NCBI GenBank assembly: GCA_016791475.1
Contig: JAEUWI010000015.1
Coordinates: forward strand, 62,001 to 126,000
Source of the DNA: Candidatus Hydrogenedentota bacterium
GTDB lineage: Bacteria > Hydrogenedentota > Hydrogenedentia > Hydrogenedentales > JAEUWI01
DNA: 64,000 nt
Reading direction: 5' to 3'
This document shows positions 7,025 to 13,542 of this stretch, in pieces. Within the stretch, counting starts at the first letter, position 1. Each line of letters begins with the position of its first letter. A program made the translations under genes and the position numbers. The notes under the pieces were generated by a model that was given only the letters and a program-made list of their open reading frames with translations, searched no databases and was not told the DNA's origin.

Positions 7025-7975
7025 ATGGCGTTTGATCTTGTTACCATCGGTTGTGTATGTGCCGATGTGAAAGCACAACCCGTAGACCAGCTCCCCGCAC
7101 GGGGCACCCTCGGCCTCATTCCCTCGCTGGAAATGACCATGGGAGGCCTCGCCGGCGTCACCGCCGCCGTTTTTAGTCGCCTCGGCGGCAAGGCGGCCTT
7201 TGCCGGTTGCCTCGGCAGCGATCCCTTCGGGAATTTCCTCATCGAAGCCTTCCAGGAAGCCGGGGTAAACACCCAGGGCATCCGCCGGGTGGACGACTGC
7301 GGGTCGGCCGCAACAGTCGTGCTTATCGGCAGCGATGGCGAGCGCACCTTCCTTCACCATGTCGGTACCGTTGGCATCCTGTCGGAGGACGATATCGATT
7401 TCGACATGTGCCAGCGCACGAAGGTCTTCCATTGGGGCGGTCCCGGCCTGACCCCGAAGCTCCATGGCGAGCCCATCGGGCGGGTCTTTAAGCGCATCCA
7501 GTCTTTTGGCGTCCGTACCTCCATCGACACCTGCTTCGACGGTTCCGGCACCTGGCTGCCCTTGATGGAAGCGGCCCTGCCCCACACGAATATCCTCTGC
7601 ACGAGCATGAGCGAAGCCCCCCACTATTCCGGTAAGACCGAGCCTGGCGAAATCTTGGATTTCTTCGCGGGTTTCGGCATCGAGCACATCCTGCTGAAAA
7701 TGGGAGGCGACGGACTGCTGGTGCGCGACAACAACGAGACCATCGCGTTCAAAGCCCACGACGTCAAGGTGGTGGATGGCACGGGTGCGGGCGATGCGGC
7801 CTGCGCCGGCTTCATCTATGGCCTGACGAAAAAATGGCCCCTGGCGCGCTGCGGCGCCCTGGCCAATGCCATCGGCGCATTGACCGTGCAAACCACGGGC
7901 AGCGCAGGCCCCAACATCAATCTGGATGCCGCCACCCATCTGATGGAGAAGCAACCATGTCAAGTTACTTCCTAG
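7025..7975 (+). CDS. PfkB-family carbohydrate kinase
   Basis: 316 residues, typical of the ribokinase/PfkB family. The N-terminal region has the substrate-binding pattern GCVCADVKAQPVDQLPARG and MGGLAGVTAAVFSRLGGKAA. The C-terminal signature VVDGTGAGDAACAGFIYG holds the anion hole and the catalytic Asp of the GAGD motif. It should phosphorylate a sugar or nucleoside with ATP in the cytoplasm, but the substrate cannot be read from the sequence. It is followed by two overlapping or close genes, so 7025-11995 may be one transcript. Confidence 0.92.
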   Translation: MAFDLVTIGCVCADVKAQPVDQLPARGTLGLIPSLEMTMGGLAGVTAAVFSRLGGKAAFAGCLGSDPFGNFLIEAFQEAGVNTQGIRRVDDCGSAATVVLIGSDGERTFLHHVGTVGILSEDDIDFDMCQRTKVFHWGGPGLTPKLHGEPIGRVFKRIQSFGVRTSIDTCFDGSGTWLPLMEAALPHTNILCTSMSEAPHYSGKTEPGEILDFFAGFGIEHILLKMGGDGLLVRDNNETIAFKAHDVKVVDGTGAGDAACAGFIYGLTKKWPLARCGALANAIGALTVQTTGSAGPNINLDAATHLMEKQPCQVTS

Positions 7976-8325
7976 CCGCGATGATCGCCGGTGTGGCTCT
8001 GATTCACGGTGCCGAGCCGGCCGCCGATGCTCCGGTCACGCAGGAAGCCGCCCCGGTGGAAACGCCTGCGCCGCCTGCCGCCGAGCCCGGCGCGCTGCCC
8101 AACATCGATCTGCCCGCGCAAACGACCCAGGGCGAGCCCGCCCCTCCCCAAACCCTGGGGGAGCCAAAGGCGGAAACACCCACCGGAACGACGCCAACCA
8201 CCACCACGGTCAGCGAAGTACCCGCGACCGAAGCGCCCCTCGAAGAATTGGTTCGCCCCACGGAAAAGAAGGATCGGAGCGGCAAGAAAGTTGCCGCGTT
8301 CTGGTTCATCACAACGGGAAAGTAA
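7957..8325 (+). CDS. Small secreted Pro/Ala/Thr-rich protein
   Basis: 122 residues, starting at the ATG inside the 3' end of the kinase gene (19-base overlap), with GGAG placed 8 to 9 bases upstream. Residues 1-18 (MSSYFLAAMIAGVALIHG) look like a signal peptide. Residues 20-100 are rich in Pro, Ala, Glu and Thr and look unstructured. The end is basic then hydrophobic (KKVAAFWFITTGK). It ends 4 bases before the GTG of the LptD-like fusion, whose own linker has the same composition. A role as a periplasmic partner of that protein is a guess from position. No family was recognised. Confidence 0.6.
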   Translation: MSSYFLAAMIAGVALIHGAEPAADAPVTQEAAPVETPAPPAAEPGALPNIDLPAQTTQGEPAPPQTLGEPKAETPTGTTPTTTTVSEVPATEAPLEELVRPTEKKDRSGKKVAAFWFITTGK

Positions 8326-8329
8326 ATCT

Positions 8330-11300
8330 GTGACACTGCGCAAACGCGTTTTAACCGCCCTGGCGGCCGCCACGTTCGCCCTCCTCGCAGGGGCTCCCCT
8401 GTCCTTCGGCCAGTCCACCCCGGAGCCGCTCAAGGCTCAGGGGCAATTCCGCGACGCCGCCGTCAACCCGGCACGAGGCCAGTTGTTCCTTTCTGTCTAT
8501 GATCGCGACGCGGTCTGGACGATCAATCCGGCCACCGGTGATATCGCCGCCCGGATCACAGTGGGCGACGGTCCCGGCGCCCTCGCTCTGGATGGCGAGT
8601 ACCTCGCCGTGGCCAACCGGCTGGGCAATTCGGTAACCCTCATCCGGCTGGACACGCTGGAAGTCAGCGGCACGCTGTCCACCGGCGAAAGCCCCAGCGC
8701 GATCGTGTCGCTGGGCGGCGGACGTTTCGTCACGGCGAACACCTTTTCCGACTCCCTTTCGGTAATCAACGCCTCGACCAACAGCGTGGAAACCATCACC
8801 GATTGCCCCAGCGTACCCGTCGATCTGGCCGTAGCCGGCCAGCATCTGGCCGTGGTCGGTCGCGCCGAAGCCCGCGCACAACTCTATGATCGCGATTCCC
8901 TCGCGCCGGGCAGTTCCGTCACCCTGAGCGCCATGGCCACCCGCGTCGTGGCCCACACGGGCGACACCTTCGTCCTGGCAAGCACCGACAAGCTCTTCGT
9001 CGTCGATCCGACAAGTGCCGCCGTCTCCGCAACCCGAAATATGGCCGTGGACGACCTGAGCAGTGACGATGGAATGCTCTATACGCTTAAGTCGGGCACC
9101 GTCGAGACGCTTGATGCCGGACTTCAGACCACCAACACAACAAGCCTCTCGCTGCCGGCCAGCGCCATCGCGGCGGGCGGCGGCGTCGTCGCATTTCTCG
9201 ATCCCAAGTCGTCCCGTGCGCAAGCCGAGAATTTGAGCAGCCTTGCGCGTGCCGTCCCGGTTCAGGTTGCGGCGCAGCCCGAGGCCCCGCTGCCTGCCCC
9301 CGAACCCGAGCGGAAAGGGAAGCGACAAAAAGACGGAGACCTGGTCATTGTCGAGGCCGCACCGGTCGAAACCGCCAACGTTTCGGAACCCGCGCCAGCG
9401 CCGGTAATCGAGCCCACACCGGATGCAACACCCGCCCCCGAAGTAACAACCGAGGCGCAACCGGAGCCCAGACCCGAGGCGGAAGTCACGCCGGCACCCG
9501 AAGCCTCACCCACGGTGGAAGCCACGCCCGCGCAGGAACCCGTCAAGGTGGCCGCTGAACCCGTGTCCGAACCCTCCCCGGTGGCGAAACGCCCCTCAGG
9601 CGCCACGCCGCCCTCGTCCGCCTCGGTGCGCCGCAACCCCATCGTCACGGAGAGCGTCCGCGCGCCTTCCACCGGACGGCCGTCGGCGTCTCCCATGCAG
9701 CAGCTTGATCGCAGGACCATCACCGACGCGCTGGTCCAGCCGACCGAGTTCGGCTCCACCACGGGCGGTTTCCAGGCCCCCGACCTGAGCAAGGATCTGG
9801 AGAACGTAACCGCGACCAGCATTTCCAGTGCGGGCCGCGGCGCGCCCACGATTTTCAACGGCTTCCGCGCCGAATTGGGGGATATGACCATGTCGGCGGA
9901 CGAGCTTACACACGTCCAGGAGCCGGTCGATCTCCATGCCAAAGGCAATGTGGAGATCACCCAGCAGTCCTCCACCATTACGGCCGACGAAATCCACTTC
10001 CGACTGGATCCCGAAGACGAAACAACCCCCGAAACCCCCAAAGTCATCCAAGGTGCGGAAGAGGAAGGCCCCTCTCTCGACAAGGGCCACCTGACACTCC
10101 ACAACGCCCACGTGGTTGAGCCGACCCGCGAAATGACCGCGGATTACATGGACTACGACTTCAAGTCGGGCCAGGGCGAGCTCAATAACGCAACCGGTCA
10201 GGCCGGAATCTACTATTTCTCCGCCGAAAAGCTCCACCTCCACGGCCCCCAGACCCTGAGCGGCGAAAACGTGTGGGTCACCACCTGCGACCGGCCCCAC
10301 CCCCACTACAAGATTCGCCTGAGCGAGCTCGAGATGGTGGACGGCCAGCCCGTCGCGGGCTCCAATGCCCGCCTCCAGTTGGGCAAAGCCGACACGCCCC
10401 TCTATCTCCCCCGCTGGCGTCGCGGCAGCGTGGGTGGTTCGCCCTGGACCCTCGACTTTGACAGCGGGCGGCAGGCCGATATCGGCTACTTCGTCAATGT
10501 GGGGCAGGCCTATGAAATCAATCCCGATGTAACCCTCGGGCCGAGGCTTTTTGTAACCGAGAAGGAAGGGGTGGGCTTTGGCGCCGACCTCACCTACGAC
10601 TTCATGGACAACCCGGCTTCCCGCTTCTATCGCACCCAGGGTGAGGCCCACGCCCTGTACACGACCGAGGACCGGGGCTACGTTCACTGGTACCACCGCT
10701 ACGAGTACAGCAATGACCTCGTAGTCCGCGCCCAGGTGGAGCATTGGGGCGATGAGGAGTTCTACAAGGACTTCTACTACGATATGTTCCGCAGCCGCTC
10801 GCAACCGCGGACCTTTGCCAACATCACCTACCGCCAGCCGAATTACATCGCCACGGGCACGGTTCGGGCCCAGACCCACAGTTGGTTCAGCGAGACGGAG
10901 CAGACGCCCGAAGCGACCTTCCACTACCTGGAACGGCCCCTCGTGGAGAATCTGTATTTCAGCTTTGACACGGCGAACGGCTACTACAACCGCGAGCCCT
11001 ACGGCGTGGATGGCGCCCGCACGGCCAACACCGCGCGTCTGACCTATAGCTGGGATCCCATGCCCGGCCTCGCCATCACGCCCTTCGTGGAAGCGGACGG
11101 CTACTTCTACTCCCGCGAGCGCCAGAGCGACACATCGGCCGGTCTCTTGTCCACCAACGTCGGGGTAACCGCCCAGACCCGGCTGCACCGCACCTATGCC
11201 GGACGCTGGGGCTTCTCCGCTTTCAAGCACATGATCGTGCCCTCCATTACCTATTCCTATCGGCCCGACACCAGCGTGGATCCCCTGGAGATTCCCCAGT

Positions 11301-11995
11301 ACGACCCGCTGGACAGCATCTTCGGTCGCAGCCGCATTGAGACCAAGCTCTCGAATGTATTCTATGGCCGCGACGCCGAAACCGGCGAAGTGTGGCAGGT
11401 GGGTCGCCTCACCCTCTATCAAGGCAACGACCTTCGCAATGAACGGAGCAAGACGGAAGACTACGAAGTCGAGCTGGACGTGCGCCCCCGCCCCTGGTGG
11501 GGACTCCAAGTCGTGGGCGAGCGCCAGAAGACCTCCGACGAGGATCAGGGCCTCAGCCGCGATACCATCGCCCGCAATTTCCCACGCTTCTATCAGGAGG
11601 TCCTCGGCGAGGCCTTCGGTTTCGATGATGCCCAGGACTACAGCGGGCGTTTCGGCGATTACAATCGCATGCTCGCCCAGTTGTACTACGACGGTGAGCC
11701 CCGGGGTGAAAAGGTCAGCGGGCGCGTCGGCTTCGCCTACACCAAGACCCAGGATGAAGTGTTCAACCGCGAAGCCCTCTACGGCCTTGGCTACAAGTTC
11801 AGCGACAAGTGGGGCTTCGGCTTCGAGCATACCTATGACTTCGAAGAACACGACCTCCGTTCGCAGACCTATGAACTCCGGCGCAGCCTCCACTGCTGGG
11901 AAACGGCCATCCGATTCCGGGATCGCGAATCGGGCTTCGACATCAACCTCGAATTCAACATCAAAGCATTCCCAGGCAGCCGCCTGAAACTGTAA
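8330..11995 (+). CDS. YVTN-type beta-propeller fused to an LptD/OstA-like outer-membrane protein
   Basis: About 1,221 residues from a GTG; the frame is open upstream but only this start gives a signal peptide (VTLRKRVLTALAAATFALLA). Residues about 25-305 form a YVTN/SMP-30-like propeller with repeating units such as LFLSVYDRDAVWTINPATG and YLAVANRLGNSVTLIRLD. Residues about 310-450 are a Pro/Glu/Ala-rich linker. Residues about 500-660 match the OstA-like region of LptD (DLHAKGNVEITQQSSTITAD, then YYFSAEKLHLHGPQTLSGE). The block VTTCDRPHPHYKI corresponds to the conserved TTC...W/Y segment at the start of the LptD barrel. The rest, rich in alternating aromatic strands, should be the barrel. LptD inserts lipopolysaccharide in the outer membrane; an N-terminal propeller is not part of the usual family architecture. 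Confidence 0.82.
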   Translation: MTLRKRVLTALAAATFALLAGAPLSFGQSTPEPLKAQGQFRDAAVNPARGQLFLSVYDRDAVWTINPATGDIAARITVGDGPGALALDGEYLAVANRLGNSVTLIRLDTLEVSGTLSTGESPSAIVSLGGGRFVTANTFSDSLSVINASTNSVETITDCPSVPVDLAVAGQHLAVVGRAEARAQLYDRDSLAPGSSVTLSAMATRVVAHTGDTFVLASTDKLFVVDPTSAAVSATRNMAVDDLSSDDGMLYTLKSGTVETLDAGLQTTNTTSLSLPASAIAAGGGVVAFLDPKSSRAQAENLSSLARAVPVQVAAQPEAPLPAPEPERKGKRQKDGDLVIVEAAPVETANVSEPAPAPVIEPTPDATPAPEVTTEAQPEPRPEAEVTPAPEASPTVEATPAQEPVKVAAEPVSEPSPVAKRPSGATPPSSASVRRNPIVTESVRAPSTGRPSASPMQQLDRRTITDALVQPTEFGSTTGGFQAPDLSKDLENVTATSISSAGRGAPTIFNGFRAELGDMTMSADELTHVQEPVDLHAKGNVEITQQSSTITADEIHFRLDPEDETTPETPKVIQGAEEEGPSLDKGHLTLHNAHVVEPTREMTADYMDYDFKSGQGELNNATGQAGIYYFSAEKLHLHGPQTLSGENVWVTTCDRPHPHYKIRLSELEMVDGQPVAGSNARLQLGKADTPLYLPRWRRGSVGGSPWTLDFDSGRQADIGYFVNVGQAYEINPDVTLGPRLFVTEKEGVGFGADLTYDFMDNPASRFYRTQGEAHALYTTEDRGYVHWYHRYEYSNDLVVRAQVEHWGDEEFYKDFYYDMFRSRSQPRTFANITYRQPNYIATGTVRAQTHSWFSETEQTPEATFHYLERPLVENLYFSFDTANGYYNREPYGVDGARTANTARLTYSWDPMPGLAITPFVEADGYFYSRERQSDTSAGLLSTNVGVTAQTRLHRTYAGRWGFSAFKHMIVPSITYSYRPDTSVDPLEIPQYDPLDSIFGRSRIETKLSNVFYGRDAETGEVWQVGRLTLYQGNDLRNERSKTEDYEVELDVRPRPWWGLQVVGERQKTSDEDQGLSRDTIARNFPRFYQEVLGEAFGFDDAQDYSGRFGDYNRMLAQLYYDGEPRGEKVSGRVGFAYTKTQDEVFNREALYGLGYKFSDKWGFGFEHTYDFEEHDLRSQTYELRRSLHCWETAIRFRDRESGFDINLEFNIKAFPGSRLKL

Positions 11996-12034: not shown

Positions 12035-12311
12035 AACCACGAATGGACACGAATCCACACGAATAAGACGAACTAGAACTTGCTTTCAACCCTATGCCGC
12101 ATTGGCGATGTGGAAGGGCAAGCTGAATTCATTCCATCCGTGCCCATCCTTGTAATCCGTGGTCAGAAAAAAAGAGCATTGGCCACGGATTACACGGATG
12201 GGCACGGATAAGTTCTACCGAAGACACGGACTTAAAAAATTGGATGGGAGTTTGGACATTCTTCAGGCCCTTCCAGTTCTTATTCGTGTAAATTCGTGTG
12301 CATTCGTGGTT
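12035..12311. repeat. Nested pair of inverted repeats built of 10-bp modules
   Basis: Outer arms 12035-12068 and about 12277-12311 are inverted copies: AACCACGAAT-GACACGAAT-CACACGAATAAG against the complement of ATTCGTGTAA ATTCGTGTGC ATTCGTGGTT. Inner arms 12135-12164 and 12181-12210 match at about 27 of 30 positions and are built of ATCCGTGCCC-like units. Both pairs have a period of about 10 bp and the same final GTGGT motif. It occupies the gap between the LptD-like gene and the M20 gene; the right outer arm ends about 46 bases before the M20 start. Confidence 0.9.
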
Positions 12312-12357
12312 GGCATCTTTGGGTCAAATGGCTGAAGTATTACCAATACAGGAAATT

Positions 12358-13542
12358 ATGTCTGTCACGCGTTCCGAGATTAACAAGCTTGTACCGACAA
12401 TCACCGAACTTCGACATGAACTGCATCAGCAGCCCGAAATCCGATTCGAAGAGCGATGGACCTCGGATCGCATCGCGCGCTTCCTGAGCGAATCCGGAAT
12501 TCCCTTCACCCGGGGCCACGCCAAGGGCACGGGAATTATGGCAACCATCGCGGGCGAAGGTGACCGGTGCGTCGCATTGCGCGCCGACATGGACGCGCTG
12601 GAAATCCAGGAAGAGACCGGGCTCCCGTATTCCTCTCGCATACCCAACCGGATGCACGCCTGCGGACACGACGGCCATAGCGCCATCCTCTGCGGCGTGG
12701 CGAAAACCCTCTGGAATCTGCGAAGTGAATTGAAGGGCACCGTCAAGTGCATCTTCCAACCTGCGGAAGAAATCGCCGCCGGCGGGCGCTTCATCGTGGA
12801 AGAGGGCCTGCTGGACGACGTCGGCGCGGCTTTCGCCCTCCACTGCTGGCCCGGCCTCCCCTGCGGCAGCGTCGCCATCGGCACCGGCCCGGTCATGGCC
12901 AGTGCGGACTTCTTCCGCATCGTGGTCAAAGGCAAAGGCGGCCATGGCGCCAACCCCGGCGGGGCCATCGATCCCATCGTCGTGGCGGCCCACATCCTCA
13001 CCGCCCTCCAGAGCATCGTCAGCCGCGAGACCGATCCGTGGGATTCCGTGGTGGTGAGCGTCGCGCGCATCGAAGCCGGCTTCGCCTCCAACATCATCCC
13101 CGAGACGGCCATCATGGAAGGCACCTACCGCGCCCTGAATCCCGAGTCGCGCGCACGCACCGCCGAGGCCATCGAACGCATTGCATCCCAGATCGCCAAA
13201 GCTTTCCGCGCCGAAGCCGTCATGGAAACCGAAGGCGCGGGCTATCCCCCCCTCAGCAACGACATCGCCATGGGCACATTCGCCCAGGAATGCGCCCGCA
13301 ACCAATTCGGCGATGATCGCGTCATCCCCGTCACCCACCCCTACATGACCGCCGAAGATTTCGCCTACTACCTTCGCGCGGTGCCGGGCGCTTTTATCTT
13401 CCTCGGCAACGACACGCCGGATGCGGTCGATCCCCCCTCCCTCCACAGCCCACGCTTCATCTTCAACGACAACGCCATTCCCGTCGGCATCGAGACGATG
13501 GCCAGCATTGCGATTAACTACTTGGATCGGTCGCCGGCGTAG
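12358..13542 (+). CDS. M20-family amidohydrolase (N-acyl amino acid / hippurate hydrolase type)
   Basis: 394 residues from ATG 12358, which has AGGA five bases upstream; ATG 12328 is an alternative that adds ten residues. Family marks: ELRHELHQQPEIRFEE at the N-terminus, HACGHDGHSAILCGVA (metal-binding His and Asp), FQPAEEIAAGGRFIVEEG (metal ligand and catalytic Glu), ALHCWPGLPCGSVAI, and PYMTAEDFAYYLRAVPGAF near the end. These proteins cleave N-acyl or N-aryl amino acid amides with two metal ions in the cytoplasm. The exact substrate is unknown. It appears to stand alone between two inverted-repeat regions. Confidence 0.93.
   Translation: MSVTRSEINKLVPTITELRHELHQQPEIRFEERWTSDRIARFLSESGIPFTRGHAKGTGIMATIAGEGDRCVALRADMDALEIQEETGLPYSSRIPNRMHACGHDGHSAILCGVAKTLWNLRSELKGTVKCIFQPAEEIAAGGRFIVEEGLLDDVGAAFALHCWPGLPCGSVAIGTGPVMASADFFRIVVKGKGGHGANPGGAIDPIVVAAHILTALQSIVSRETDPWDSVVVSVARIEAGFASNIIPETAIMEGTYRALNPESRARTAEAIERIASQIAKAFRAEAVMETEGAGYPPLSNDIAMGTFAQECARNQFGDDRVIPVTHPYMTAEDFAYYLRAVPGAFIFLGNDTPDAVDPPSLHSPRFIFNDNAIPVGIETMASIAINYLDRSPA

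Follow-up and report, generated by a model that had tools for sequence, protein, structure and literature searches.

Most bacteria that bear LPS cannot do without LptD. The accessory components known for it (LptE, LptM and LptY) are proteins in their own right and have been studied in Proteobacteria. A gene in the window, the stretch of 64,000 nucleotides analysed here, raises the question of whether an LptD can carry a beta-propeller within its own chain and, if so, what the propeller could do there. The host is a Candidatus Hydrogenedentota MAG of 7.7 Mb in 529 contigs. The open frame is uninterrupted from 8009 to 11995, and its probable start, GTG at 8330, lies five bases past the stop of a small upstream ORF. 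The features of the gene and its product are as follows.

8330..11995, + strand: lptD-type gene with N-terminal propeller, 1221 aa from a GTG start (Pfam, AlphaFold2, Foldseek, VIA)
8330..8410, + strand: signal peptide, residues 1-27 (judged by eye)
8411..9244, + strand: seven-bladed YVTN-type beta-propeller, residues 28-305 (TIGR02276, AlphaFold2, VIA, our own HMM in relatives)
9269..9766, + strand: Pro/Glu/Ala-rich linker, residues 314-479, predicted to be mostly disordered (pLDDT)
9659..9685, + strand: short linker motif RAPxxxRPS, residues 444-452 (column conservation)
9800..10420, + strand: OstA/LptA-like beta-jellyroll (beta-taco), residues 491-697 (PF03968, strands, Foldseek)
10286..10288, + strand: Cys653 (TTCD), putative interdomain disulfide partner 1 (kept in 46/48 rows)
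10445..11992, + strand: LptD transmembrane barrel of about 26 strands, residues 706-1220 (AlphaFold2, Foldseek, VIA)
11894..11896, + strand: Cys1189 (LHCWE), putative interdomain disulfide partner 2 (41/45 rows)

The preliminary description had read a single frame running from a signal peptide through a propeller, a Pro/Glu-rich linker and an OstA-like domain into a barrel, and this order is borne out by the frame itself, by the Pfam and NCBIfam matches and by an AlphaFold2 model built on 48 relatives (model residue i is protein residue i + 27). The profile searches placed PF03968 and TIGR02276 above their cut-offs and PF19838 barely so; the predicted structure has a propeller, an OstA-like domain and an LptD-type barrel of ~26 strands. 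The description had also argued against an annotation artefact. Among 54 loci, an HMM built in this analysis found the propeller in 33 LptD frames and in a broken-off N-terminal part (L069, belonging to L014), or 34 of the 52 loci with a readable N-terminus; it is absent at 18, and the other two are cut by contig ends. The 34 loci come from separate MAGs, and at none of the fused loci is the frame interrupted. With the same fusion at more than 30 other loci, an assembly join at 9240-9700 is for practical purposes ruled out. The joining of two genes by assembly or annotation has the low complexity of the linker in its favor and nothing else, and the 34 separate occurrences, together with congruent propeller and barrel trees, make it so improbable as to be negligible. 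The fusion of propeller and LptD is genuine.

The propeller is predicted with about 28 strands at pLDDT 91-97 (about 95). YVTN repeats were recognized near residue 136 (TIGR02276, 30.8 bits against a cut-off of 27.85); PF21783 (YNCE) fell below its gathering score in Pfam (15.0 bits against 27.1). The VIA list for the full-length model was filled by seven-bladed propeller matches, including YncE (Z 32) and the archaeal YVTN propeller 1l0q (Z 31). Lying N-terminal to the periplasmic OstA domain, the propeller should itself be periplasmic. The alignment column of window residue 94 holds Cys ("LACVN") in 26 of 33 rows, and Val in the window protein. The linker of ~165 residues that follows is nearly all below pLDDT 50 (27-43 over most of it), so the model is uninformative about how propeller and barrel sit with respect to each other. 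Its RAPxxxRPS motif is common to fused and unfused LptDs, as is a conserved GFxPPDWT segment that comes after the motif and ahead of the OstA domain.

The remainder of the protein had been described as an LptD-type OstA domain and barrel. Pfam matches to PF03968 (LptD_N; residues 523-627, 21.8 bits against a cut-off of 20.4) and PF19838 (LptD_2; residues 937-987, 23.4 bits, just above the cut-off of 22.5) were found in the window protein, and among 41 relatives PF03968 was matched in 27 and PF04453 in 16. The predicted structure, rather than the marginal Pfam match, is what confirms the barrel as LptD. In Foldseek the whole model matched full-length LptD at E 8e-28, and the OstA domain and barrel folded alone did so at E 1e-28; in VIA this portion aligned to LptD over 612 residues with Z 23.6, whereas the highest-scoring barrel other than LptD reached Z 15.5. 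A sequence profile of the same portion matched Neisseria LptD (E 2.7e-7). The TTCDRPHPHY block of the OstA domain is residues 651-660 and includes Cys653. Of 45 readable rows, 41 have both this residue and Cys1189, which lies close to where the barrel ends. In E. coli LptD, Cys31, 173, 724 and 725 form the pairs that join the OstA domain to the barrel (PMC12644819). From its position in the sequence, the Cys653/Cys1189 pair resembles one of these two interdomain disulfides; a second OstA-barrel pair is absent from the window protein.

The host genome has a single recognized LptD and the other parts of an LPS pathway. LptC, LptA and LptB are together on one contig (C11), LptF/G are on another (C54), LptE is on a third (C47; E 5e-16), and LpxC is present. 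LpxC, LptF/G, LptC and LptE were over their cut-offs; LptB and LptA were assigned by position beside LptC, with a PF03968 match near the cut-off for LptA. The propeller as a replacement for a missing LptE was rejected, because LptE is present. Across the phylum, LpxC was found in 63 of 68 genomes, LptF/G in 67 and a match to the LptD query in 59. Nine genomes with LpxC and LptF/G had no LptD match at the threshold used (G018, G028, G032, G035, G041, G046, G058, G061 and G064). Most of these either are less than 90% complete or are members of f4, a divergent family; either incompleteness or a very divergent LptD would account for them.

Unfused LptDs retain the rest of the protein, and no separate copy of the propeller was found in the high-quality unfused genomes. 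Since both are so, the propeller looks like a dispensable accessory. The splitting off of the propeller as a gene of its own in unfused genomes was also considered and rejected, with no second match in the high-quality ones. The other YVTN proteins of the host genome are weakly similar to the propeller. One of them is a longer, multi-domain protein (L068:2436-4259, on C54) of 607 aa with CxxCH haem-binding motifs, encoded about 10 kb from LptF/G.

When fused and unfused states were placed on the barrel tree, seven changes were needed, at least five of them forced by well-supported branches. The propeller and barrel trees have 13 of 23 splits in common, including the deepest, and their distances are correlated (Mantel r 0.76, 0 of 2000 permutations). 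Because the two trees agree at the deepest split, we infer from the sequences a single ancestral fusion, older than the diversification of the order sampled; the propeller would then be ancestral in the order and has probably been lost several times. This polarity, fusion and then loss, depends on a root placed at the midpoint. In a search of 42 genomes from other phyla with the OstA and barrel query, two long LptD frames (L078 and L079) were inspected by eye; they begin with Pro-rich sequence or have an extended OstA region, and no propeller was evident in them. The open literature, with subscription papers and preprints outside the search, yielded no paper joining LptD to a propeller fusion or to the Hydrogenedentota, and no description of the propeller-LptD or of the small upstream protein discussed below.

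The number of changes on the tree could mean that selection for LPS transport does not act on the propeller, an old fusion persisting passively and lost when genomes shrink. Unfused genomes are indeed smaller (median 3.9 Mb against 6.4 Mb for fused ones, p 6e-6), in a test that ignores relatedness. A domain free of any role would decay, however, and the 29 propellers that were excised all measure 291-306 aa, the frame stays open, and about twenty positions of the domain are kept in at least 80% of rows at a mean identity of 31%. We therefore give passive persistence only a slim chance.

The reading that we favor, with a little better than even confidence, is that the protein is the host's sole recognized LptD, the LPS translocon, with an accessory periplasmic docking propeller that ties the translocon to another component of the envelope. 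What is established for this family implies that the LptD part transports LPS: the OstA domain would accept LPS handed on by the LptA bridge, and the barrel, together with LptE, would put it into the outer leaflet. The propeller is tethered to the OstA domain through the disordered linker and, by analogy with LptY and BamB, most probably serves as a non-catalytic docking module tying the translocon to a periplasmic or cell-wall component. Accessory docking is the most economical role to infer, because no catalytic family was matched over its cut-off by the propeller in Pfam or NCBIfam, the tether is long and several lineages lack the domain. The weak Pfam support for the barrel in this genome counts against the LptD part of this reading. 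The propeller evolves faster than the barrel (mean identity 31% against 48%), which would suit a lineage-specific ligand or weak constraint equally well.

The same long, disordered Pro/Glu arm could instead let the propeller act as a cell-wall or glycan anchor, binding peptidoglycan or an envelope polysaccharide and so holding the Lpt bridge. The conserved acidic, Arg and aromatic positions of the propeller (R41-D42, F133, F139, D141 and R178) might make up a site for a ligand. The range of things bound by YVTN propellers is wide, however, and no known peptidoglycan-binding family was detected in Pfam or NCBIfam, so that we consider an anchor unlikely. BamB, the periplasmic propeller of the BAM complex, is a separate lipoprotein with eight blades that acts on outer-membrane proteins, and a BamB-like assembly helper in cis, aiding the folding of LptD at BAM and the formation of its interdomain disulfide, would make sense for a slow-folding, disulfide-bonded client in which the Cys pair is kept. 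Most unfused LptDs retain the pair too and manage with no propeller, and the matches of the propeller in Pfam and NCBIfam are to YVTN-type repeats and not to BamB; we assign such a helper a small probability. Docking remains our preferred role for the propeller, and the propeller-free relatives offer natural pairs, with and without it, for probing what an accessory periplasmic domain contributes.

The genes on either side of lptD are as follows.

7025..7975, + strand: pfkB-family sugar kinase, syntenic upstream neighbor (PF00294)
7957..8325, + strand: small secreted Pro/Glu-rich protein, 122 aa (same design in 37/49 loci)
12298..13542, + strand: M20 peptidase/amidohydrolase, downstream neighbor in many fused loci (Pfam)

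In most of the loci that extend far enough, lptD is preceded by the same pfkB gene. A palindromic intergenic element lies at 12035-12311 of the window. Its 34-nt arms are 91% complementary, and an inverted repeat of 30 nt is nested inside it. Parts of the element, chiefly the arms, occur at up to 100 places in the genome among the matches listed, many of which are both strands of one place.

The small secreted protein had been suspected of belonging to the same complex as LptD, and its relevance is upheld by its conservation at the lptD locus across the phylum. It has a signal-like N-terminus (by eye), a Pro/Glu/Ala-rich middle and the C-terminus KKVAAFWFITTGK. The same design was found by iterative search and pattern scan at 37 of 49 loci, both fused and unfused. 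The small ORF stops no more than some tens of bases from where lptD begins, and a C-terminal peptide of the type (K/R)VAAFWFILPGK is conserved directly ahead of lptD (for example in L007, L027, L033 and L040). An "ELAPP"-like motif after the signal is common to many of these proteins. Some loci, such as L005, L006, L018, L048 and L056, showed no C-terminal AFW pattern ahead of lptD.

A C-terminal peptide kept so strictly at the junction of two translated frames points either to an LptD-binding partner or to a leader with a regulatory role. The criteria published for arrest-peptide uORFs include a signal, a spacer of more than 30 aa and conserved C-terminal residues (PMC10987492), and the small ORF has all three, the signal being judged by eye. 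If a ribosome stalled on the final codons of this ORF, it would sit over the start of lptD. A stem-loop hiding the downstream Shine-Dalgarno, as in SecM-like control, was looked for at the junction in this one genome, and no excess of mRNA structure was seen (z -0.48). We lean toward an LptD partner rather than a leader because of this covering of the start and the lack of unusual mRNA structure. The small protein does not fit LptM, a lipoprotein with an N-terminal Cys peptide, as the window's copy contains no Cys and its conserved peptide is C-terminal.

Taken together, propeller and small protein could make up a distinct Hydrogenedentota LPS translocon, in which a propeller in cis works alongside a co-translated small protein whose AFW peptide binds LptD or stalls the ribosome, matching the synthesis of LptD to export. 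We regard this fuller proposal as doubtful; if true, the two would form a lineage-specific layer of control on LPS insertion. An LptD with a propeller built in across a whole phylum, coupled to a small protein, would be evidence that extension of the translocon has also taken other routes.

Among known systems, the closest is the LptD of LptDE from E. coli and Klebsiella (PDB 5iv9, 4q35 and 9kn3), which likewise has an OstA/beta-taco domain plus a barrel of ~26 strands; the likeness extends to an OstA-barrel Cys pair and to the presence of LptE and LptA/B/C/F/G in the host genome. The window protein differs in having one Cys pair instead of two and in its added N-terminal propeller and linker, and identity in the structural alignment is only 13-14%. 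With the seven-bladed YVTN/YncE-type propellers (PDB 3vgz and 1l0q) it has in common the fold (VIA Z 31-32, rmsd 2.1-2.2 Å) and a YVTN repeat model above cut-off; identity is 15-17%, and here the propeller is a module of an outer-membrane protein. BamB is likewise a periplasmic propeller serving an outer-membrane machine, with no sequence match seen to the one described here in Pfam or NCBIfam. SecM/RAPP-type arrest-peptide uORFs are also small upstream ORFs with conserved C-terminal residues beside the stop (PMC10987492), although the ORF described here precedes lptD rather than sec or yidC and its motif is different. LptY (YedD) and LptM are accessory lipoproteins of the E. coli translocon, located at the LptD beta-taco, which LptY binds, or at the hinge (PMC12644819). 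They would be the functional neighbors of the propeller if the docking reading is right, although they are separate proteins, lipocalin-like or a short peptide, whereas the Hydrogenedentota propeller is joined to LptD in cis.
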